From assembly GCA_946555345.1 (NCBI GenBank), contig CAMNSS010000010.1, positions 1 to 64,000 on the forward strand: 64,000 nucleotides of DNA. The letters are read 5' to 3'. The stretch is from an uncultured Eubacterium sp. (GTDB lineage Bacteria; Bacillota; Clostridia; Peptostreptococcales; Anaerovoracaceae). The notes under the pieces were generated by a model that was given only the letters and a program-made list of their open reading frames with translations, was not told where the DNA came from and made no database searches. Shown here in pieces: positions 303 to 63,173 of the stretch. Positions within the stretch are counted from its first letter, which is position 1. Each line of letters begins with the position of its first letter. The translations under genes and the position numbers were made by a program.

Positions 303-1781
303 ATGGGTAAAAAAATTCCAATGTGGCAATGCGTCCTCGTAATGATCGTGCTAGTCGCACTCATCTTCTGGGGCGTAATGATTGACACAGACGCAGGCGA
401 AGCCCACGTTATGCTGATCTTTGCCGGCGGATTCGCTGCAATCGTCGCCATTCTTAACGGTTGGAAATGGAAGGTTCTTGAACAGGGTATCCTGGCAGCC
501 ATCAACAGAACCATGCAAGCAATATTGATTCTGGCAGTTGTAGGCCTGATGATTGCTTCGTGGATGGCCGGCGGCGTAATCCCGTCCATGATGTACTTTG
601 GTATCAAAGTTATCGCGCCTTCTATCTTCTTGTTCACAGCTTGTATCCTGTGCGGCATCGTATCGCTGGCAACGGGTTCATCCTGGTCAACAGCTGGCTC
701 TATGGGCGTAGCGCTCATCGGCGTCGGCACGGCCCTCGGTTTTCCGGCAGCCATGACGGCTGGCGCAGTTGTTTCCGGTGCATATTTCGGAGACAAAATG
801 TCGCCGTTATCGGATACGACAAACTTAGCTCCGGCAGTTGCAGGGTCTAACCTGTTCGACCATATCAAGCATATGATCTGGACGACAGGTCCATCTCTGG
901 TAATCGCACTGATTATATATCTGTTGCTCGGGTTCTTCGGAGATCACTCCGGCAATGCAGATACGCAGACGATCGATATGATCTTATCTTTCATCACAGA
1001 TAATTACAATGTAAGCCTGCTGTGCTTAATCCCACCGATATTCGTAATCGTAGCGGTAGCATTGAAGTTGCCTGCGCTGCCTGCACTGATCGGCGGCGTT
1101 GTGCTGGGCTGCCCGTTCTTCTTTATGCAGGGCAACAGCCTGGCTAAGATTCCGTCAATCCTAAACTATGGTATCGGCGTTGAAGTCGCAGAAGATGCAG
1201 ATTCCGTAATCCAGGAGCTGGCAAGCCTTCTTTCCTGCGATGGTATGCAGGGAATGATGTGGACGATTTCCCTCATCATGTGCGCTATGGTATTCGGCGG
1301 CATCGTTGACTGCACTGGCATGATGGGAGCGATTGCAGAGGCCCTGCTCAAGCTGGCAAGAGGTACGAGAGGCGGCCTGGTAACAGTTACCGTATTCTCG
1401 GCAATCGTCGTAAACATCCTTTGCTCCGACCAGTACCTGTCGATCATCCTGCCTGGAAGAATGTACAAAGAAGCATTCGAAGACAGGAGGCTCAAGCCAC
1501 AAAACCTTTCGAGAGCGTTGGAAGACTCCGGTACGCTTACATCCAACTTCATCCCTTGGAACACCTGCGGCGCTACAATGAGCAGCTTCTTACAGTGTCC
1601 ACAATGGGGAGCAGGCGGATATGCACCGTATGCGTTCCTTAACTACATGAATCCTATCATCTCGATCTTCTACGGGTTCACCGGCATCTCCATGAAGGAA
1701 ATGACGGAAGAAGAATACCAGAAGGTATTGGAAGAAAGAAAATCAGAAAAGGAAGCGGCTGCAAAGGCAATGGAAGCTTAA
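303..1781 (+). CDS. nhaC: Na+/H+ antiporter, NhaC family
   Basis: This 492-residue inner-membrane protein belongs to the NhaC family of secondary antiporters, which exchange Na+ for H+ (some members exchange malate/lactate or other solutes). The sequence shows about a dozen hydrophobic segments. It has the family's central stretch TGSSWSTAGSMGVALIG near residue 120, followed by GAYFGDKMSPLSDTTNLAPAV near 160, where the conserved D, K, S and TTNLAP residues of the transport core lie. A cytosolic Lys/Glu-rich tail ends the protein. The start is set by a GAGGAGG site about 8 bases upstream. It stands alone between its own promoter and a terminator. The ion specificity cannot be read from sequence. 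Confidence 0.93.
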   Translation: MGKKIPMWQCVLVMIVLVALIFWGVMIDTDAGEAHVMLIFAGGFAAIVAILNGWKWKVLEQGILAAINRTMQAILILAVVGLMIASWMAGGVIPSMMYFGIKVIAPSIFLFTACILCGIVSLATGSSWSTAGSMGVALIGVGTALGFPAAMTAGAVVSGAYFGDKMSPLSDTTNLAPAVAGSNLFDHIKHMIWTTGPSLVIALIIYLLLGFFGDHSGNADTQTIDMILSFITDNYNVSLLCLIPPIFVIVAVALKLPALPALIGGVVLGCPFFFMQGNSLAKIPSILNYGIGVEVAEDADSVIQELASLLSCDGMQGMMWTISLIMCAMVFGGIVDCTGMMGAIAEALLKLARGTRGGLVTVTVFSAIVVNILCSDQYLSIILPGRMYKEAFEDRRLKPQNLSRALEDSGTLTSNFIPWNTCGATMSSFLQCPQWGAGGYAPYAFLNYMNPIISIFYGFTGISMKEMTEEEYQKVLEERKSEKEAAAKAMEA

Positions 1782-1812
1782 TCGGTTGCGGCCTGATACA
1801 TAAACACCAAAC

Positions 1813-1848
1813 AAAAAGAGCTGCCTGCATCATGCGGCGGCTCTTTTT
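1813..1848 (+). terminator. Rho-independent terminator after nhaC
   Basis: An 11-base stem (AAAGAGCTGCC paired with GGCGGCTCTTT, one G-T wobble) is followed by a T run. It lies 30 bases after the antiporter stop codon. Confidence 0.85.
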
Positions 1849-2276
1849 CATTATATAGGGAATATCGTTTTCGATATTTCCGGCTTGCCCCGGACATCCA
1901 GTGGACATTCTGGGGAATATCAACAGAACCTGCTTCTAACCGGAAATCGGCTAATTCGGCGTTGTTCTTGGCAAAACGATTGGGTGCGGTTTTATTATCC
2001 CGGGGGCAGTTTCCTGCAAGTTTCCACAAACAGCCAAAAACAAAAAACCGGCGGCTTCAGCTTTCATCCTCCAACCATGCCTTTTTCAAAAATCCACTGT
2101 TTTAATCCCGCTGGATATGATAAGATACATTTTATCAAGGCAATGCGTAGAAAACAAAACCTGGCGGCGCCAACAAATTTGCTTGTGCGCAGGCCGCCAC
2201 CCCGAATCGGCATTTCGCAGGAAAAACAATTCTTAACAGCATACCTTATAACACTATAATCTTTCAGGAGGTTTCT
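1849..2276. other. Gap with hairpins, no gene seen
   Basis: About 430 bases between the nhaC terminator and the next start. A perfect AATATCG/CGATATT hairpin lies at 1861-1877 and overlaps a longer possible fold using GATATTTCC and GGGGAATATC up to 1920. The open frame at 1885-2259 on the plus strand has no ribosome site and atypical composition, so I do not call it. I see no consensus promoter for the small gene at 2277. Confidence 0.5.
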
Positions 2277-2462
2277 ATGTCATTTAAAAACAACAGCTCC
2301 CAATGGGATATCAAGAAAATTTTCGCCGCAATCATGTGCGCCCTCATCGCACTCATGTTTTTATCATCACTGATTCGGATGGGATTTGCTTTATTACGCT
2401 TATTGTTTGGGCTTTTTTGCTTTTACCTCGCCTTCGCTTTTTTCAAATCCTCAAAGAAATAG
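2277..2462 (+). CDS. Small membrane protein, function unknown
   Basis: This is a 61-residue protein with a polar N-terminus of about 12 residues, a hydrophobic stretch from about residue 14 to 56, long enough for two membrane spans, and a short basic end FFKSSKK. An AGGAGG ribosome site 7 bases before the ATG supports translation. I recognise no family. It converges on the U32 gene: its stop is 4 bases from the end of that gene. The translated sequence and ribosome site look real, but I have no functional evidence. Confidence 0.6.
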   Translation: MSFKNNSSQWDIKKIFAAIMCALIALMFLSSLIRMGFALLRLLFGLFCFYLAFAFFKSSKK

Positions 2463-2466
2463 CGGA

Positions 2467-4863
2467 TCATCGTTCCTTGTCCTGCAAAAAGAGCAGATAT
2501 TTATCCCGCGAACTTGCCTGCAAAACCGTATACTGCTGTCCTTTCCGATCGGTCAGCCGCTTTGCATCAACCGGATGTTCTGTTATCATGAGCGGAATAT
2601 TCCCGAAAGAAACTGCCTCCGCTTCGTGGGAGAACTGTAAAACCTCCACGCCGATTTCTGCAAACGCTTTCAAGCTTTGGCTGTTATACACATTAAGCCC
2701 GTAATCCCCATAAACCCGGATACCCGCCGCTTGAAACTTTTCGATCCATCCGGGATTTCCAATCAAAATACCTGTGTCTGCAATCCGCCTGCATATCCTG
2801 GAAAAATTCACTTCTATATATCGATCTAAGCTTCCCTTGGAGACATTCAGGATATACGGCATCACACTGCAAATTTTCCCGTCAGCAAATCGATCCAAAA
2901 CATTCCTTAACTGCCTGGACGTTTCATCATCCATATAAAGTTCCAATGGAATGCAAAGTGTTACGTTTTCGTATTTCACAAGCAGTTTCGCAAGCGCCTC
3001 AGCGGCAGGCAATTCACTGCCGTATAAATGAATGAGCTTTCCGCCTTGGCGATGAGTAAGCGTCCGGGCTTTGCGTGCAGGTTCTATCTCCCCGCTTCTT
3101 ATTTCCGCCAGTTTTTCTTCCGTAAGCCCCATGCGGCTGTTCTGGCATTTTGCCTCCATCAAACGTTTGACCGCTTGCCGCCGCATATCATTCAACACGG
3201 ACACTGGCACAGAAACGCCCTGCGCCAGATCGGCTTCTATCTTTTTCGCCATAAACACGGTATTTCCCAGCTTGCAAAGCTGGCTTTTAACTCGCGCTTC
3301 ATCCAACGGCTTATGAATCGCTTTTTCGGAAATGCGGCTTCCACGAACCGTAATCCATCCATCTTTCCTTTGCTGGAATCCCCCTTGCTTTTTCTTCAAA
3401 CCGCCCTGCCCTTGCGGCAATTTTTCCTGTTTTTCCAATAAACCATCTTGCCCCTGCCGCGAGCCGCCTTGTTTTTTCGCCAAACCGCCCTGTTTCTGCT
3501 GCGGGCCTCCTTGCTTCTGCGGCAAATCATCCTGTCCCTGCGGCAAATCGCCCTTGCCGTCAGCCCCCACCGCCTCCCGGATCGAGAGAACCGGCACTTT
3601 GCCCAGCTCTGCGGCAAATTTCATTTCCACTGGAATGCGGCGGATAAAATCACTCGCATATGATTGTTCCGCCTCTGCCAACAGCCGCTTGTCCGTCACC
3701 TTATAAACGCAGTCGCCAGGGTTTACCTTGCCCTTGATATCGCCAATCCGCAGACAGCCACCCGACAGTGGTTTCAGATAAGAGATCACGTTTCCCACCG
3801 TTTTCCTGCCGTAAATTTCCACGCCATCCCCCAGGGAAAGGCTGCCGCCATCAAGCTTCACATCCACCAAGGTGCATCCGTTCCGTACAGATGCCACCCG
3901 GCCGACATACGTTCCCTGGTTTTTCGGGCTATTCCCCGACAAAAGCGCACGGCCGGGGTTTCCGTAAAAGTACCCTTTGCTAAACCCACCCCGATTGAAA
4001 ATCTGCGTAAGCCGCTGCATATCGTCCGCTTGCACTGTTACACTGCCCGTTTTTTGATACTGATCCAGGTACTTGCGGTAAACCGATGTGACGATCGCCA
4101 CGTATTGCGGCGATTTTAGCCGCCCTTCTATCTTGAAGGAATCAACCCCTGCCTTGCAAAGCTGCGGAATATCCGCAAGCAAGCAAATATCCTTAGGACT
4201 GAGCAGGAAAGCTTTTTCCCCTTTCTCATTTTCGTAAGGAAGCCTGCACGGCTGCGCACAAAGCCCGCGGTTGCCGCTGCGCCCGTTCGCTCCGCCTAGG
4301 ATTCTGCTCATTTGGCACTGTCCTGAATAACACATACACAACGCGCCATGGACGAAAACCTCTACCTCGCACGGTTTGTCCGCCCCATGGCAGACCGCAG
4401 CCAAATCCCCTAATTCGGCAAGGCTGAGTTCCCGCGCGGGGACGATTCGGCAAAACCCCAGCTTTCGCACTGTATCCAGCGCCCACTTGTTGTATATCGT
4501 TCCCTGCGTTGACAAATGCATTGGCAAATCCGGAAGGTATTCCCGGACGAGCCGCGCCAGCCCCATGTCTTGGAGAATGACTGCATCGGCGCCCGCCTTG
4601 TAGAGAAAATGAACGTATGAAAAAGCCTCAAAAAGTTCATCATCCCTGATGAGCGTATTGATGGTAATATAGGCTTTCACATTCCTGGCATGCGCATAAT
4701 CGATCGCCTGTTGCATATCGCCAGCCTTAAAATTATCCGCTTTTATGCGTGCATTAAACAAAGAGCCTCCCATGTAAACAGCATCCGCTCCATTTTGCAC
4801 TGCCGCCGAAAGCTGCGGAAAGCCGCCTACAGGCGCTAAAAGCTCTGGAATACGATAGCTCAT
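2467..4863 (-). CDS. U32 family peptidase-like protein (RlhA-like), with internal heptad repeat
   Basis: Members of the U32 family include collagenase-like peptidases and RlhA/TrhP-type enzymes for RNA hydroxylation; this length and architecture (U32 domain plus a DUF3656-like middle) resemble RlhA, which makes 5-hydroxycytidine in 23S rRNA. The N-terminus ELLAPVGG, the ADAVYMGG loop and the hallmark EVEVFVHGALCMCYSGQC followed by NRGLCAQPCR are clear. I chose the ATG at 4863 because AAAGGA lies about 8 bases upstream; the frame is open further to 5067 but that extension is not family-like. The product is about 798 residues. Unusual: residues about 435-500 hold nine imperfect seven-residue repeats of the type LxxKQGG that are not part of the family. 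Peptidase versus RNA-modification role is undecided. Confidence 0.85.
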   Translation of the reverse strand: MSYRIPELLAPVGGFPQLSAAVQNGADAVYMGGSLFNARIKADNFKAGDMQQAIDYAHARNVKAYITINTLIRDDELFEAFSYVHFLYKAGADAVILQDMGLARLVREYLPDLPMHLSTQGTIYNKWALDTVRKLGFCRIVPARELSLAELGDLAAVCHGADKPCEVEVFVHGALCMCYSGQCQMSRILGGANGRSGNRGLCAQPCRLPYENEKGEKAFLLSPKDICLLADIPQLCKAGVDSFKIEGRLKSPQYVAIVTSVYRKYLDQYQKTGSVTVQADDMQRLTQIFNRGGFSKGYFYGNPGRALLSGNSPKNQGTYVGRVASVRNGCTLVDVKLDGGSLSLGDGVEIYGRKTVGNVISYLKPLSGGCLRIGDIKGKVNPGDCVYKVTDKRLLAEAEQSYASDFIRRIPVEMKFAAELGKVPVLSIREAVGADGKGDLPQGQDDLPQKQGGPQQKQGGLAKKQGGSRQGQDGLLEKQEKLPQGQGGLKKKQGGFQQRKDGWITVRGSRISEKAIHKPLDEARVKSQLCKLGNTVFMAKKIEADLAQGVSVPVSVLNDMRRQAVKRLMEAKCQNSRMGLTEEKLAEIRSGEIEPARKARTLTHRQGGKLIHLYGSELPAAEALAKLLVKYENVTLCIPLELYMDDETSRQLRNVLDRFADGKICSVMPYILNVSKGSLDRYIEVNFSRICRRIADTGILIGNPGWIEKFQAAGIRVYGDYGLNVYNSQSLKAFAEIGVEVLQFSHEAEAVSFGNIPLMITEHPVDAKRLTDRKGQQYTVLQASSRDKYLLFLQDKER
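3358..3556 (-). repeat. 21-bp tandem repeat inside the U32 gene
   Basis: About nine imperfect 21-base units are read in frame as LPQGQDD, LPQKQGG, PQQKQGG, LAKKQGG, SRQGQDG, LLEKQEK, LPQGQGG, LKKKQGG and FQQRKDG. The insert is hydrophilic and probably disordered. Confidence 0.85.
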
Positions 4864-49878: not shown

Positions 49879-50790
49879 TTATTCTCCCTTCTCAAGAAGA
49901 CGGTCAATTACTTCCACGAGATGTCCAATCTCAGGCTTTGACATCTGTTCATCAGCGCCTAAGTTTCTGCCTTTAATCTCCATTTCAGGGTTGATCAGGG
50001 ATGAGAAAATGATTACCGGAATCTCCTTCAACCTGGAGTCCTCTTTCACCAGCTTCGTCAGCCTGTGTCCATCCATCTCGGGCATTTCGATATCGGTAAT
50101 GAGGATGCTGGCCTTCTCGTAAAGGTCGCTGTCGTTTTTGATGCTGGAAAGGAAATCCCAGCAATCTTTCCCGTTATTAAACTTGCGGATATTCACGTAT
50201 CCGGCTTTTTTCAGCGACTGCTCGATCATCATGCCGAGAAGCACGGAATCTTCTGCCAAGACGACGGAACGCTCGCTGATTTCACGTTCGCCCAGCTCAT
50301 CGATCTCAGACATCTGAATCCCCGTTTCCGGCGCAATTTCCGTCACGATTTTCTCAAAGTCCAAAATCGTGATCAGCTTATTATTGTACTGTGCGATTCC
50401 CGTCGCCACGCCTTCTTCCCCGCGCGTCAGCGTCTTATCCGGCTTCTGGATATCCTGCCAGGAAATTCGCTGAATCCCCACTACGGAATGTACCCGGAAC
50501 GCAATGTTCAGCTTATTGAAATTAGTGATGATAAATAAATCTTTGTCTTCCTTCTCGGACTGCCTGTCTGTAAGATATTTCGGCAGATCCACAACAGTCA
50601 GGACGACGTCGCGCGGTTTAAAAATCCCCTCTACGCATTCATGCGAATGCGGAACGGGCTTTACCGGCTCTGACATCAGGATTTCCTTGACTTTTGCCAC
50701 ATTGATCCCATACGCTTCACCGAAAACGGTAAACTCCATGATTTCCATTTCATTCGTTCCAGATTCTAACAAAATTTCAGTTTCTGCCAT
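49879..50790 (-). CDS. cheV: Chemotaxis coupling protein CheV
   Basis: This 303-residue protein fuses a CheW-like coupling domain (residues about 10-165) to a receiver domain (about 175-300). The CheW part shows FTVFGEAYGINVAKVKEIL and VVLTVVDLPKYLT. The receiver has VVLAEDSVLLGMM, the phospho-Asp in ILITDIEMPEMDG, the switch Ser in VIIFSSL and Lys in MSKPE. CheV joins receptors to CheA and takes part in adaptation. AGGAAGTGAGG precedes the start. Confidence 0.93.
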   Translation of the reverse strand: MAETEILLESGTNEMEIMEFTVFGEAYGINVAKVKEILMSEPVKPVPHSHECVEGIFKPRDVVLTVVDLPKYLTDRQSEKEDKDLFIITNFNKLNIAFRVHSVVGIQRISWQDIQKPDKTLTRGEEGVATGIAQYNNKLITILDFEKIVTEIAPETGIQMSEIDELGEREISERSVVLAEDSVLLGMMIEQSLKKAGYVNIRKFNNGKDCWDFLSSIKNDSDLYEKASILITDIEMPEMDGHRLTKLVKEDSRLKEIPVIIFSSLINPEMEIKGRNLGADEQMSKPEIGHLVEVIDRLLEKGE

Positions 50791-50817: not shown

Positions 50818-51303
50818 TTACAGAATTTTCTCCGGCTTGCCGATGGTTCTCAATTTTACAGTCCCGGTCTCCAGTTCAATCAGCATGGTCCTGGCGGAGT
50901 TTCCGCCCACATCCTGATTCTTAATCCTGATCCCCTCAGCCTGTAGCGTTTTCTTTACAATTTCCACATTTCTTTCGCCGATATGCCCCAAATCGCCTTC
51001 GCCGCCCATGGCAAACATCTGCGCGCCGCCTGCGATTTTGCATATGTACCTGCTCTTCACGCCGCCAAAAGCGGATAGCTTCCTGAGCGTTTCCCTGATT
51101 CCTGTATCAGCAAACTTAAATACATTGGTTTCCCTGCCATTGGACTGCGGAAGCATAACGTGAAGCAATGCCCCCAGCTTGATTGCTGGATCGTAAAAGG
51201 TAACGCCAACGCAGGAGCCTAAGGCATAGGTTATGATGATTCCCTCCTGTCTGCCAAATTTCATATCTCCAATTCCTACCTTAGTATCAATGATTTTATT
51301 CAT
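50818..51303 (-). CDS. cheD: Chemoreceptor glutamine deamidase CheD
   Basis: This 161-residue enzyme deamidates receptor glutamines and in Bacillota also boosts CheC. The active-site Cys lies in YALGSCVGVTFYDPAIKLGALLHVMLPQS with the His of LHVMLP 17 residues later. GVKSRYICKIAGGAQMFAM and IGERNVEIVKKTLQAEGI follow, then the Gly-Gly-Asn-Ser-Ala-Arg end. It overlaps cheC by 8 bases, so the two are made in step. Confidence 0.95.
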   Translation of the reverse strand: MNKIIDTKVGIGDMKFGRQEGIIITYALGSCVGVTFYDPAIKLGALLHVMLPQSNGRETNVFKFADTGIRETLRKLSAFGGVKSRYICKIAGGAQMFAMGGEGDLGHIGERNVEIVKKTLQAEGIRIKNQDVGGNSARTMLIELETGTVKLRTIGKPEKIL

Positions 51304-51922
51304 AATTATCCACCAGTCTATTCATCAATTTATTCAGTGATTCAATATCAGGCAGCATCAGCAAGGTGCTATCGTGATGTTCGTCTTTTAAAACTAATTG
51401 ACCGTTAATCAGCATCAGGCTATCGGTTTCATATCCCATTTCCGCCATCGGAACCGACATGATCCCGCCCAGCATATTGACCGCAATCGCCGGGACCGAA
51501 AGCTGGATATCCATTCCCGCCAGCGTGGAAAGTGCGTTCACATAAGAAGAAATCATGATATTCCCCACCTCTGACAAGACGGAAATTTCCATCTCATAAA
51601 GCTGTGTGTAATCGTCTATCTTCTTATGCAGGATGCGGCTTAACACGGCGTTTACAAATTCCATTCGCAACAAAAACAGCATCGTACCTTTCATGTCTCC
51701 GCTCATTTTTACCAAAACCGCAGCGACGACATCTTCCGGTCCGCCCATCAGCGTGATCGCATCGTTAAAATTCTTAATTTCAATCTTAGGCACTGTCATC
51801 CGCACCTGCTCCCCGATCAGGCTGGAAAGGGCAGTTGCTGCGCTTCCCGTTCCAATGCTTCCAATTTCCCGCATGACGTCGAGCGCCATGGTATCCATAT
51901 CTTCATAACTTTTAATACCCAT
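51296..51922 (-). CDS. cheC: CheY-P phosphatase CheC, first active site altered
   Basis: This 208-residue protein removes phosphate from CheY-P. CheC has two pseudo-symmetric sites, each with Glu and Asn. The second, EISVLSEVGNIMISSYVNALS near residue 115, keeps both. The first reads VMREIGSIGTGSAATALS near residue 20: the Glu is present but the Asn is Ser. This copy therefore probably has a single working site. CheD, its partner, is the next gene. Confidence 0.93.
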   Translation of the reverse strand: MGIKSYEDMDTMALDVMREIGSIGTGSAATALSSLIGEQVRMTVPKIEIKNFNDAITLMGGPEDVVAAVLVKMSGDMKGTMLFLLRMEFVNAVLSRILHKKIDDYTQLYEMEISVLSEVGNIMISSYVNALSTLAGMDIQLSVPAIAVNMLGGIMSVPMAEMGYETDSLMLINGQLVLKDEHHDSTLLMLPDIESLNKLMNRLVDNYE

Positions 51923-59690: not shown

Positions 59691-61184
59691 CTATGCTTCT
59701 ACTTCCAGTTCTTCCTGGATAATCTCCGTAATCCTCACGCCGAAATTGTCTTCGACAACAACGACGTCGCCCTTGGCGATGCACTGCCCGTTTACGAAGA
59801 CATCCACCTGTTCGCCGGCTAGCTTATTCAGCACGATCAGGGAGCCTTTGTTAAATTCTAAAATATCCTTTACGAGCGTCTTGGTCCTGCCGATCTCGAC
59901 CGAAACATCGAGCGGAACGCCCATGATCAGATCCAAGTTAGCATCTGGGTCTGCGCTCCCGTCGCTTTCCGTCAAATTATGCTGCGGCATCGTCCCTACC
60001 TTGATCTGCTTCGGGGCAGCCGCTGTTTTGTGCATATTCTTGAGCTGTTCCAGTTCCTGCTGCTGCAGCTCCATCTGCTGGCGCATCATCTCCATCATTT
60101 GCTGCATCATCGCAACGCTTGCTGTATCCATCGATACGGCGGCTACAGGAGCTGATGCCTGTACAGGTGCAGCAGGAACCGCTGCCGCTGCTGCTGGAGC
60201 AGAAGCCATTGCAGGCCCAGGAGCAGCCACTGTGGGGGAGGGGGTAGAGGACGCCGCCTCCGGCTCTGCCGCTGCTGGAGCTGCCGGCGCAACTTCAGCC
60301 TCTGCGCCGCCTGCCTCCGCCAGCAATTTATTGATCGCATCCTGGTCGAGGACGCCTCCATCGCCGCCCCCGGCTGTTGCTGCCGTCTCCGGCTCTGCCG
60401 CTGTAGCAGTTTCCGGCGCAGCTCCGCTCTCCGGGCCGCCGCCTGCGCCTGCTAACAGTTTATTGATCGCATCCTGGTCGAGGACGCCTCCATCGCCGCC
60501 TCCGGCTGTTGCCGCCGCCTCCGGCTCTGCCGCCGCTTCAGCTTCCGGGGCAGCTCCTGCTTTATCATCTTCAGGAAGTGTTCCTTCAGGGAAAAATCCG
60601 GATACCAATTCTTTTGCAAGCGGAATCGGCATAACGTGAAGGAACTCACTTTCCATTTCATCTCCGATTTTCAGGTTAAACCGGATCACCACCATAGGTT
60701 CGCGTTCCGCAAAATACTTGTTTTTAAAGTCTTCCGAATCGTCAACCTCAAAAGCAATCGGTGTGGAAATGTTAACCGTCCTGGACAATAATTCAGCCAG
60801 GGCTGTCGCTGACGAACCCATCATCTGGTTCATGATTTCGCAGACAGCGCTTAAATTCATCTCGTTGAGTTCAAATTCTTCATCCGGGATTTCCATTCCC
60901 ATCATCCGTTCAACGATGATTTTGACGTCTGACCGTTTCAGAAGCATCACGTTGTTTCCGGTAATGCCTTCCACATACGTGATTTCCACGCCGACCGCAG
61001 GTTCAAGATTGGAAAACTCAAACTCGTCTATGCTCTTAATTTCCACAATGGGCGTCGTGATATCCACCCTGGCATTAAGCATAGTCGAGGCCGCTGTGGC
61101 CGACGAGCCCAAGCTTATATTCATAATTTCGCCGATCGCATCTATTTCCATAGGTGAGATCTTATTTGTTCCATTCTTTGCCAT
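59691..61184 (-). CDS. fliY: Flagellar motor switch phosphatase FliY, with duplicated linker motif
   Basis: This 497-residue switch protein joins a CheC-like CheY-P phosphatase (residues about 10-200) to a FliN-type surface domain (about 410-490, LDLIMGVPLDVSVEIGRTKTLVKDILEFNKGSLIVLNKLAGEQVDVFVNG). Both phosphatase sites keep Glu and Asn (IGEIMNISLG and VCEIMNQMMG). The linker of about 200 residues is Ala/Glu/Pro-rich and holds two copies of GGVLDQDAINKLLA, close to the FliM N-terminal CheY-binding motif LSQxEIDxLL. Copies are 44 residues apart. Bacillus FliY has a related motif at its N-terminus; here the N-terminus lacks it. The linker also has Gln/Met-rich runs. Confidence 0.94.
   Translation of the reverse strand: MAKNGTNKISPMEIDAIGEIMNISLGSSATAASTMLNARVDITTPIVEIKSIDEFEFSNLEPAVGVEITYVEGITGNNVMLLKRSDVKIIVERMMGMEIPDEEFELNEMNLSAVCEIMNQMMGSSATALAELLSRTVNISTPIAFEVDDSEDFKNKYFAEREPMVVIRFNLKIGDEMESEFLHVMPIPLAKELVSGFFPEGTLPEDDKAGAAPEAEAAAEPEAAATAGGGDGGVLDQDAINKLLAGAGGGPESGAAPETATAAEPETAATAGGGDGGVLDQDAINKLLAEAGGAEAEVAPAAPAAAEPEAASSTPSPTVAAPGPAMASAPAAAAAVPAAPVQASAPVAAVSMDTASVAMMQQMMEMMRQQMELQQQELEQLKNMHKTAAAPKQIKVGTMPQHNLTESDGSADPDANLDLIMGVPLDVSVEIGRTKTLVKDILEFNKGSLIVLNKLAGEQVDVFVNGQCIAKGDVVVVEDNFGVRITEIIQEELEVEA
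60319..60512 (-). repeat. 132-bp tandem duplication in the fliY linker
   Basis: Two units with a period of 132 bases (44 codons) each encode GGGDGGVLDQDAINKLLAxAGG followed by an Ala/Glu/Pro stretch. The shared core is almost identical at DNA level, for example TTTATTGATCGC at 60327 and 60459, which points to a recent or well-conserved duplication. Confidence 0.88.
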
Positions 61185-61218: not shown

Positions 61219-61662
61219 TTACTTGCCAACATCCAGAGCCTTTTGTGCCATGAGCTTGACCGCATTGTATGCGGTAATGTTCGCCTCATATGCCCTGGTC
61301 GCTGCCATGCTGTCTGTCATTTCCTTGATCATATCGATATTTGGTATCCTGACATATCCATTCTCGTCTGCATCGGGATGCTCCGGATCGTAAACTGCCT
61401 TTAGCTCGGTCTCATCGTCTATGATGGCAGCCGCCCTTACGCCAGCATTCGTCCCAATGGATTTTCCTGCCATAGTCGTGCTCAATACATCATGAAAAGA
61501 GTTATTCTTTGCCTGAAGCACTACCATCTTCCTGCGATATGGGCCGCCTGATTCTGTTCGCGTCGTTTCGATATTTGCAATATTTTCCGCAACAACATCC
61601 AGTCTCATTCTCTGTGCCGTCATGCCTGACGCGCTAATGTTCAATGAACTTAAAAACGACAT
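61219..61662 (-). CDS. flgC: Flagellar basal-body rod protein FlgC
   Basis: This 147-residue rod protein begins SFLSSLNISASGMTAQRMRLDVVAENIANIETTRTESGGPYRR, the FlgC signature, with GYVRIPNIDMIKEMTDSMAATRAYEANITAYN near the end. It is unusual that the gene sits between cheY and fliY, away from flgB and fliE, with which it normally forms a trio. AAGGAGG precedes the ATG. Confidence 0.93.
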   Translation of the reverse strand: MSFLSSLNISASGMTAQRMRLDVVAENIANIETTRTESGGPYRRKMVVLQAKNNSFHDVLSTTMAGKSIGTNAGVRAAAIIDDETELKAVYDPEHPDADENGYVRIPNIDMIKEMTDSMAATRAYEANITAYNAVKLMAQKALDVGK

Positions 61663-61692: not shown

Positions 61693-62052
61693 CTATCCTA
61701 CGATAGAGCTCACTGTTTTCAGGACGCGGTCAGGCTTAAACGGTTTTACGATAAAGTCCTTTGCACCGGATTTAATCGCATCGATAACCATGCTTTCCTG
61801 GCCCATTGCAGAACACATGACAACATTTGCCGACGGGTTAATTCCCTTAATTTCCTTCAATGCTTCCAGGCCATCCTTGTTCGGCATCGTAATATCCATG
61901 ATAACCAGGTCCGGTGAAATTTCCTTGAATTTTTCTACCGCATCCGCACCATCGACCGCCTCCGTTACATCGTCATACCCGCCCTTGTTCAGGGTATCCT
62001 TCACCATCATCCGCATGAAAGCCGCATCGTCAACAATTAATATCTTCGCCAT
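61693..62052 (-). CDS. cheY: Chemotaxis response regulator CheY
   Basis: This 119-residue single-domain receiver carries the acidic pair in ILIVDDAAFMRMM, the phospho-Asp in PDLVIMDITMPNKDG near residue 53, the switch Ser in VVMCSAMGQ near 82 and the Lys in DFIVKPFKPD near 104. When phosphorylated it binds FliM and FliY. It lies between fliM and flgC in the basal-body operon. Confidence 0.95.
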   Translation of the reverse strand: MAKILIVDDAAFMRMMVKDTLNKGGYDDVTEAVDGADAVEKFKEISPDLVIMDITMPNKDGLEALKEIKGINPSANVVMCSAMGQESMVIDAIKSGAKDFIVKPFKPDRVLKTVSSIVG

Positions 62053-62093: not shown

Positions 62094-63173
62094 TCATTCA
62101 TTAGCCTGCTCCGCTTGATCGGAAGCAACATCCGACGCTTCTGCATCTTCCGGCTGCTGGTTTTCCTCATCCTCTTCGGAGTCGATTCGTTTCTGTATCT
62201 TAATGGCAACGCTCTTTTTATGAATCCCCACGTTACCCGTAAACCAAGGTTCTTCGTCTACAAATACCGATACAGGCGTGTTCTTCGGTTTATTCAAGTC
62301 AAGCACATCGCCCACTTTCAAGCCGTATACATCCCGCAAGCTGACCTTTGCGTCGCCCAAATCTGCACTGACCGTAAGGGCGGAGTCTTTGATCTTCTGC
62401 ATGATCGCAGCCCTTGCCCGGTCGGCATCCTGTGTGTATTCGCTTTGCGTACTCTTCCGCTTGTCTATGATCGAGAAAATGTTCGCCAGCAAATTACCCG
62501 GTATGCATACGCTGATCAAGCCATCGACTTGATCCATCCGCACTTTCAGCATAACGATCACGACTGTTTCATCTAAGCTGATATCCTGGAAAAGGCTCGG
62601 ATTTTCTTCCAGCCTGGTCTCGCCCAAGGACAGCTTGATGTAGTTATTCCAAGCATCTCCGGTCGCCCCCAAAACGTAATCCATAACCCTCTGGTACAAA
62701 CTCAGTTCAATGTCCGTATAGGTATACGATGCATCGATATCCATATCATTTCCCAAACCTCCCAGCATTCTGTCTATCATATTTACCATGAGGATTTGAT
62801 TGATATGAACGATCATCGGCGGGTTTTTTGCTTCATCAGGCAGCTTTAGGTTAGACAACATGATAATATCGCTGTCGCTAAGGCCGTTGCTGAACTCATA
62901 ATACCGCTGTTCTTCTACAGCCAGTACCTCGATTTCACTGCTGACCCGCAGGATCGCATTCAGCCTGGAAGAAACGATTCTGGCATAATTTTCATAAATG
63001 CCCTGCACCATTTTCAATTTGTCTTTGGTAAATTTCTTCGGGCTATAGAAGTCGTATTTCTTGTATTCCGGCTTCTTTTCTGCCTGCTTTTCTTCCTGTT
63101 CGCCATCGGAACCGCTGCCCTGCATGGAATTCAGTAATGCGTCAATCTGACTTTGTGATAATACTTCAGCCAT
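62094..63173 (-). CDS. fliM: Flagellar motor switch protein FliM
   Basis: This 359-residue switch protein has the N-terminal CheY-binding peptide EVLSQSQIDALLNSMQ, then a charged linker, the middle CheC-like domain (YDFYSPKKFTKDKLKMVQGIYENYARIVSSRLNAILR; NQILMVNMIDRMLGG), and the FliN-like end (GDAKVSLRDVYGLKVGDVLDLNKPKNTPVSVFVD). GGGAGG precedes the start. The acidic Glu/Asp/Gln tail is not conserved. Confidence 0.96.
   Translation of the reverse strand: MAEVLSQSQIDALLNSMQGSGSDGEQEEKQAEKKPEYKKYDFYSPKKFTKDKLKMVQGIYENYARIVSSRLNAILRVSSEIEVLAVEEQRYYEFSNGLSDSDIIMLSNLKLPDEAKNPPMIVHINQILMVNMIDRMLGGLGNDMDIDASYTYTDIELSLYQRVMDYVLGATGDAWNNYIKLSLGETRLEENPSLFQDISLDETVVIVMLKVRMDQVDGLISVCIPGNLLANIFSIIDKRKSTQSEYTQDADRARAAIMQKIKDSALTVSADLGDAKVSLRDVYGLKVGDVLDLNKPKNTPVSVFVDEEPWFTGNVGIHKKSVAIKIQKRIDSEEDEENQQPEDAEASDVASDQAEQANE

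Follow-up and report, generated by a model that had tools for sequence, protein, structure and literature searches.

Why should a flagellar phosphatase lack the CheY-binding motif expected at its N-terminus and yet carry two similar motifs in the linker between its domains? This question is raised by the fliY gene of the stretch of DNA analyzed here (64,000 nucleotides in all, hereafter the window). The N-terminus of Bacillus subtilis FliY is described as carrying a CheY-binding motif in the accessible text of one source (PMC8809382), and the EIDALL motif is said, in the available portion of another, to be present at the N-termini of FliM and FliY in all motile bacteria (PMC9126983). The latter source also presents the FliM N-terminus as a high-affinity site that increases the number of CheY-P molecules then bound by the FliM middle domain, and gives 1f4v as the structure of the FliM motif complex.

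The fliY gene and its duplicated linker motif

The product of the gene displays the features by which FliY is recognized, namely, a CheC-like domain followed by a FliN/SPOA domain in one chain and two CheC active-site motifs, each with its Glu and Asn (we take D/S-x3-E-x2-N to be the CheC active-site pattern). It is matched by the Pfam families CheC (7.1e-25) and FliMN_C (1.7e-22) and by the NCBIfam FliY family PRK08119 (325.1 bits; cut-off 218), and its best match, both by fold (Foldseek, E 2.2e-16) and by sequence, is Thermotoga FliY (4hyn). The surrounding region is a large cluster of flagellar and chemotaxis genes, in which fliY lies downstream of fliM and cheY and is separated from cheY by a gene that we name flgC-like from its sequence type (61219-61662). 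The relevant features of the window are as follows.

59691..61184, minus strand: fliY, 497 aa; CheC-like domain, long linker and FliN (SPOA) domain (Pfam, NCBIfam, Foldseek)
60585..61184, minus strand: CheC-like phosphatase domain, about residues 1-200, with no N-terminal CheY-binding motif ahead of it (sequence and fold matches)
61119..61142, minus strand: first CheC active-site motif, DAIGEIMN (E19, N22; D/S-x3-E-x2-N pattern)
60828..60851, minus strand: second CheC active-site motif, SAVCEIMN (E116, N119; sequence)
60417..60548, minus strand: repeat unit 1 of the linker, residues 213-256 (codon comparison)
60453..60482, minus strand: motif copy 1, LDQDAINKLL, CheY-docking-like, residues 235-244 (codon comparison; AlphaFold helix 237-245)
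60285..60416, minus strand: repeat unit 2 of the linker, residues 257-300 (codon comparison)
60321..60350, minus strand: motif copy 2, LDQDAINKLL, CheY-docking-like, residues 279-288 (codon comparison; AlphaFold helix 281-290)
60027..60125, minus strand: predicted long Met/Gln-rich linker helix, residues 354-386 (AlphaFold)
59718..59930, minus strand: FliN/SPOA domain, residues 419-489 (Pfam; resembles T. maritima FliN 1o6a/1yab)
61693..62052, minus strand: cheY, 119 aa, close to T. maritima CheY (match to 1tmy, E 9.6e-45)
62094..63173, minus strand: fliM, with its own N-terminal motif LSQSQIDALL at 63132-63161 (Pfam, window scan)
51296..51922, minus strand: separate CheC homologue, 30% identical to FliY residues 9-143 (sequence comparison)
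50818-51303: cheD-like gene following the separate CheC homologue (open reading frame list; presumably cheD, judging from its sequence type)

The encoded CheY is identical to that of T. maritima at 24 of 36 positions over residues 81-116 (counted by eye in the alignment), a segment that should hold alpha4-beta5-alpha5. The separate CheC homologue and the cheD-like gene, which lie outside the repeat, probably belong to the same CheY-P control system as FliY. The gene order fliM-cheY-flgC-like-fliY recurs in one related locus, L247, where the flgC-like gene occupies 3489-3938.

The linker of FliY is long and rich in Ala, Glu and Pro. The initial annotation had reported a motif duplicated within it, and this is confirmed: LDQDAINKLL occurs twice, starting at residues 235 and 279, a spacing of 44. 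The two copies lie in a tandem duplication of 132 bp (about 44 codons) whose units are 79.5% identical in DNA overall and 88.9% identical between codons -5 and +12 relative to the motif start, and the only differences within the 10 motif codons are two synonymous changes. The FliM start quoted for comparison was likewise correct. So was the remark that the N-terminus of FliY is devoid of such a motif: it reads MAKNGTNKISPMEIDAIGEIMN, and since the stop-to-stop frame contributes just three residues ahead of the Met, no N-terminal motif has been overlooked. A missed upstream start supplying one is ruled out by the same stop. The start of the first CheC helix (KISPMEIDAIG, window 61127-61162; LSSMEIDAIG in relatives) bears a superficial resemblance to EIDALL that can fool a motif scan. 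The position matrix described next did score LSSMEIDAIG in some sequences, and those matches were excluded.

To judge the copies, we derived a position matrix from the N-termini of FliM in the collected genomes, among them the FliM of the window. A single match as good as either copy was found in 4 of 20,000 shuffles of the window linker, an estimate that covers one event rather than two because the copies stem from one duplication. When all six frames of the window were scanned, the highest scores went to the FliM N-terminus (38.6; itself part of the matrix) and the two FliY copies (11.1 each), followed by a next-best score of 10.4. Among the eight near-invariant motif positions used (L1, S/T2, Q3, E/Q5, I6, D7, L9, L10), the window copies keep five (L1, Q3, I6, L9 and L10) and depart at three, with D for S, A for E/Q and Asn for Asp; the D at position 2 would presumably still cap the helix. 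Relatives often keep more of these positions, as in LSQEEIEKLL. In score, the window copies by themselves barely exceed background, and the case for the motif rests on the relatives.

Distribution and descent of the linker motif

Matches in a search for FliY were obtained in 1 of 49 genomes of the window's genus (the window's own, so that no second FliY was found within the 49 genus genomes searched), 42 of 349 of the family, 138 of 393 of the order and 144 of 391 of the class. From these, 40 of the 42 family genomes with a match, the top-scoring order and class matches and outliers picked for want of an N-terminal region were taken into a collection of FliY sequences, for which 80 further stretches were fetched; it also includes 80 loci from named genomes, the best 80 of at least 439 relatives that were confirmed for a query built from 11 motif holders. 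Left out of the counts were six FliY-like fragments without the FliN part, later fragments of this kind, L255, L256 and identical sequences. All frames were taken from stop to stop, so the absence of an N-terminal motif in the relatives is independent of start calls.

Among the resulting 243 distinct full-length FliY proteins, the N-terminal motif alone is found in 112 and linker motifs alone in 85; another 46 lack both types, and none combines them. The sample is biased toward holders, and 85 of 243 is hence not a frequency. The number of linker copies in the 85 holders is one in 11, two in 50, three in 22 and four in 2. The final count for each protein is the larger of those given by the FliM-derived matrix and a looser pattern, which disagree in 4 of the 243 (L230, L236, L240, L241). 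A stricter pattern, which misses variants such as MSQEEMDALM, recovers 74 linker holders in the 243; 15 loci from named genomes have no strict match, of which 11 contain one or more copies under the looser count and four (L181, L239, L246, L248) contain none. A few of the 184 copies admitted by the looser pattern are doubtful: four have P at position 3 and three have T at position 6. Of the 112 proteins labeled as N-terminal, 109 fit the pattern, L169 fits by eye, and L081 and L114 are doubtful. Among the linker holders are records bearing the names Lacrimispora, Oribacterium, Anaerotignum, Clostridium sp. MD294 strain ASF356, Lachnospiraceae and Oscillospiraceae. At the rank of phylum, 291 of 398 genomes gave a match, and the 30 fetched loci that were examined further comprise 17 with an N-terminal motif, nine with none by pattern (in two of these, L269 and L275, a diverged N-terminal motif can be made out by eye), the locus of the window, L254, which has linker motifs (its third match doubtful), and the fragments L255 and L256, which have one linker-type motif each.

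The proteins with linker motifs differ from those with the N-terminal motif in the length of the linker (median, 196 versus 86 residues). Both CheC active sites are intact in all 85 of them, as they are in 44 of the 46 proteins with neither motif, and FliM keeps its own N-terminal motif in all 59 readable FliM starts from linker-type loci.

In a FastTree phylogeny of the CheC and FliN domains, midpoint-rooted without an outgroup, all 85 linker holders fall in a clade of 127 members (support 1.0), none of which has the N-terminal motif; the window protein is therefore classed as a FliY variant and not as a FliY of the B. subtilis type. Within this clade, the 85 holders belong to a group of 97 (support 0.984) together with 12 members that have neither motif, and a separate subclade of 29 (support 1.0) likewise has neither. 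A tree built in the same way with 12 added sequences gives a clade of 132 (support 1.0) with 87 linker holders and no N-terminal motif, and 86 of the 87 holders lie in a group of 98 (support 0.997); the remaining one, L292, is placed outside that group with a support of 0.16. Because the N-terminal and linker types separate at one deep split, their mutual exclusion amounts to roughly a single evolutionary event. The simplest history is one in which the N-terminal motif was lost at or before the base of the clade, and the linker motif was gained either on one branch or at the base, followed by later losses and changes in copy number. In all, 42 of the 127 members retain a FliY with neither motif, indicating that the site is not essential.

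The relatives support the assignment of the repeated sequence to the FliM/FliY type of motif. Of the 184 linker copies, 173 lie nearer to the N-terminal motif of FliY than to that of FliM. This points to relocation from FliY's own N-terminus, and a loan from FliM, which we also considered, is the less likely source.

Several further observations concern individual loci. The window FliY clusters with L004 and L247, within a group where Lachnospiraceae records abound; the flagellar cluster of the window (36000-64000) could reflect acquisition by transfer or a mis-binned contig. Outside the clade, the FliY of L281 (G910; 1150-2457, minus strand) has three N-terminal motifs before the CheC domain, LSQEEIDALL in the canonical place and then LSQEDIDAML twice, indicating that the site can multiply independently of the linker clade. 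No second N-terminal array was seen among its relatives in the 8 of 10 matching loci with a readable CheC start (L281 included); the relatives from its order comprise six with a readable start and one N-terminal motif, and L292, with none there and one in the linker. In L072 (G248), the FliM frame starts almost at the core, without the N-terminal CheY-binding motif, and FliY also has no motif; the action of CheY may be altered or even absent in this case. Finally, L272 (G1156) and L276 (G960) code for FliY-like frames of 805 and 622 aa with, by eye, three and two tandem CheC-like domains, respectively, before FliN.

Selection on the motif and turnover of the repeats

The 184 linker copies yield the consensus S-S-G-G-x-L/M-S-Q-E-E-I-E-K/A/R-L/M-L/M-A-G, in which the flanking Gly residues are conserved despite lying outside the search pattern (Gly occupies the third place before the motif in 136 of 184 copies and the second place after it in 125 of 184). 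Across 99 pairs of adjacent copies, the ratio of nonsynonymous to synonymous differences is 0.37 in the motif and 2.16 in the flanks, about sixfold lower in the motif. Pairs were formed only from copies that both fitted the pattern, a choice that favors low change in the motif, and it is the control confined to positions 4, 7 and 8, nearly free in the pattern, that addresses this bias: these three have 38 nonsynonymous and 89 synonymous differences, against 693 and 251 in the flanks. Nonsynonymous changes number 0 at Q3, 1 at the acidic position 7 and 22 at position 8, as is expected of one face of a helix.

Superimposed on this constraint is a tendency of copies in the same protein to resemble each other. 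Over 36 residues, copies within a protein are identical at 0.62 of positions versus 0.34 for first copies compared between proteins, and the corresponding values for the motif are 0.90 and 0.60. Measured against nearest neighbors, the within-protein similarity is the higher in 8 of 11 cases at 70-80% domain identity, 20 of 21 at 80-90% and 15 of 42 at 90% or more. The spacing of repeats across linker arrays ranges from 18 to 65 residues. The picture matches that of repeats renewed by duplication or conversion as selection preserves the motif. The initial annotation had allowed that the motif might prove random within Ala/Glu-rich linkers; the survey points the other way, since across a large clade the motif is conserved, occurs in repeats and evolves under purifying selection.

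A putative docking array and its alternatives

The architecture, conservation, selection pattern and distribution of the linker motifs are direct observations. Going beyond them, we consider it probable, on comparative sequence grounds, that the FliY of this lineage bears a relocated, multivalent, putative docking array for CheY-P on the flagellar phosphatase. Under this proposal, FliY would have lost its single N-terminal CheY-binding motif and would now present one to four copies (in most cases two or three) along the flexible linker that joins CheC to FliN. Each copy would be a short amphipathic helix, most likely engaging the alpha4-beta5-alpha5 face of CheY (or phosphorylated CheY), as does the FliM N-terminus. 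Tethered at the C-ring next to FliM and a pair of intact CheC sites, the copies could act as a multivalent capture array, keeping CheY-P close to the switch and handing it on both to FliM, to drive switching, and to FliY, to be hydrolyzed, with selection retaining the motif while repeats in the DNA duplicate and homogenize. The initial annotation had suggested that docking might raise local CheY-P around the phosphatase domain. We advance more tentatively, as a possibility of somewhat less than even weight, that FliY in this clade, which includes many Lachnospiraceae and Oscillospiraceae, swapped its single terminal site for a comb of slightly detuned sites that recombine and homogenize within the gene, with copy number tuning the motor; as there are many copies of FliY per C-ring, it could then outnumber FliM in sites for CheY-P.

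The near-invariant Asp of the motif, found in 235 of 236 FliM and in 98 of 110 N-terminal FliY motifs, is replaced by Glu in 133 of the 184 linker copies and by Asn in the window, the position being acidic in 167 of 184 overall; change at this position could lower the affinity for CheY. An AlphaFold model of the window FliY (49 sequences; mean pLDDT 72.6, pTM 0.51) has helices at both motifs (237-245 and 281-290) with modest confidence (10-residue block means of 59, 61 and 75) in a linker that is otherwise of low confidence, and at these values it neither shows nor excludes contacts made by the linker. Some weight against a docking array comes from T. maritima FliY, which, according to the accessible part of a review (PMC7355467), binds activated CheY no better than inactive CheY.

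Among the alternatives, the nearest overlaps with the docking array and differs in its net effect: the motifs may dock CheY-P mainly to deliver substrate, making FliY a sink that shortens the lifetime of the signal rather than a reservoir for switching. This is a serious possibility, if a little short of an even chance. The position of the motifs between the phosphatase and FliN domains speaks for it, together with the retention of both CheC sites in every linker holder and of FliM's own switching site in all 59 readable cases; nevertheless, proteins with neither motif keep both sites almost as consistently (44 of 46), and sequence is neutral between sink and reservoir. It is unlikely that the repeats bind another receiver or switch partner in place of CheY, such as another CheY, FliM/FliG or the CheV-like receiver protein encoded nearby at 49879-50790. 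A change of partner would be compatible with the consistent differences from the FliM consensus (at position 7 E instead of D, M for L, and K/R at position 8). On the other hand, the other positions (LSQ, I, LL) carry the CheY-binding signature, no profile is closer than that of the FliY N-terminal motif, and position 7 stays acidic in the great majority of copies (167 of 184).

A purely structural role, with the amphipathic helix folding onto FliY's own CheC or FliN domain or aiding self-association of linkers in the C-ring, strikes us as rather improbable. The predicted helices and the length of the linker (196 against 86 residues) are compatible with it, but the motif fits the known docking signature better than it does a generic helix, and a model with a low-confidence linker and a pTM of 0.51 leaves such contacts neither shown nor excluded. 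Hardest to sustain is the view that a chance match without function, in a linker rich in Ala, Glu and Pro, was multiplied by replication slippage. Slippage does predict variable spacing (18-65 residues) and homogenization within proteins, and a single window copy scores barely above background; against this, the score was reached by only 4 of 20,000 shuffles, the motif is conserved across the clade and its nonsynonymous/synonymous ratio is about six times lower than outside it. We reject a random match on these three grounds and regard the reading as very improbable.

Comparison with known systems helps to place the proposed docking array. With the FliY of B. subtilis and T. maritima (PRK08119; 4hyn), the window protein shares the CheC-like domain with two active-site motifs, the linker, the FliN domain and a flagellar gene cluster near cheY and fliM; it differs in having no N-terminal CheY-binding motif, two FliM-like motifs and a longer linker. 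The copies resemble the FliM N-terminal motif (EIDALL), of which we take 4iga to be the T. maritima complex, in the pattern L-x-Q-x-x-I-x-x-L-L and a predicted short helix, but they are internal and repeated and have Glu or Asn for Asp, those of the window also D for S and A for E/Q. CheZ, a phosphatase of unrelated fold, has a CheY-binding peptide at its C-terminus on a flexible linker, as a single terminal copy; it is thus comparable to the window FliY as a phosphatase to which a CheY-binding (or CheY-binding-like) peptide is joined by a linker. The FliY of Helicobacter and Campylobacter apparently also has no N-terminal motif of the B. subtilis type, as the accessible text of PMC8809382 implies, but its phosphatase sites are reported as lost in the available part of PMC6946799, whereas those of the window protein are intact. 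In the open-access papers searched, we found no description of motifs in the FliY linker or of repeated CheY-binding motifs.

In this clade, the EIDALL-type motif is present in FliM and not at the N-terminus of FliY, unlike the statement made for all motile bacteria in the accessible part of PMC9126983. If the linker copies bind CheY-P, the relatives would constitute a set of natural variants with zero, one, two, three or four extra docking sites per FliY, in which the number of tethered sites, as against CheY-P concentration, could be tested for its effect on the sensitivity of the switch and the termination of the signal. Should the comb of slightly detuned sites be real, the motor itself would store, average and destroy the signal, and the number of repeats would set its sensitivity and recovery time over evolution. 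More generally, this family offers a clean example of a short linear motif that has shifted its place in a protein, multiplied and come to evolve in concert.
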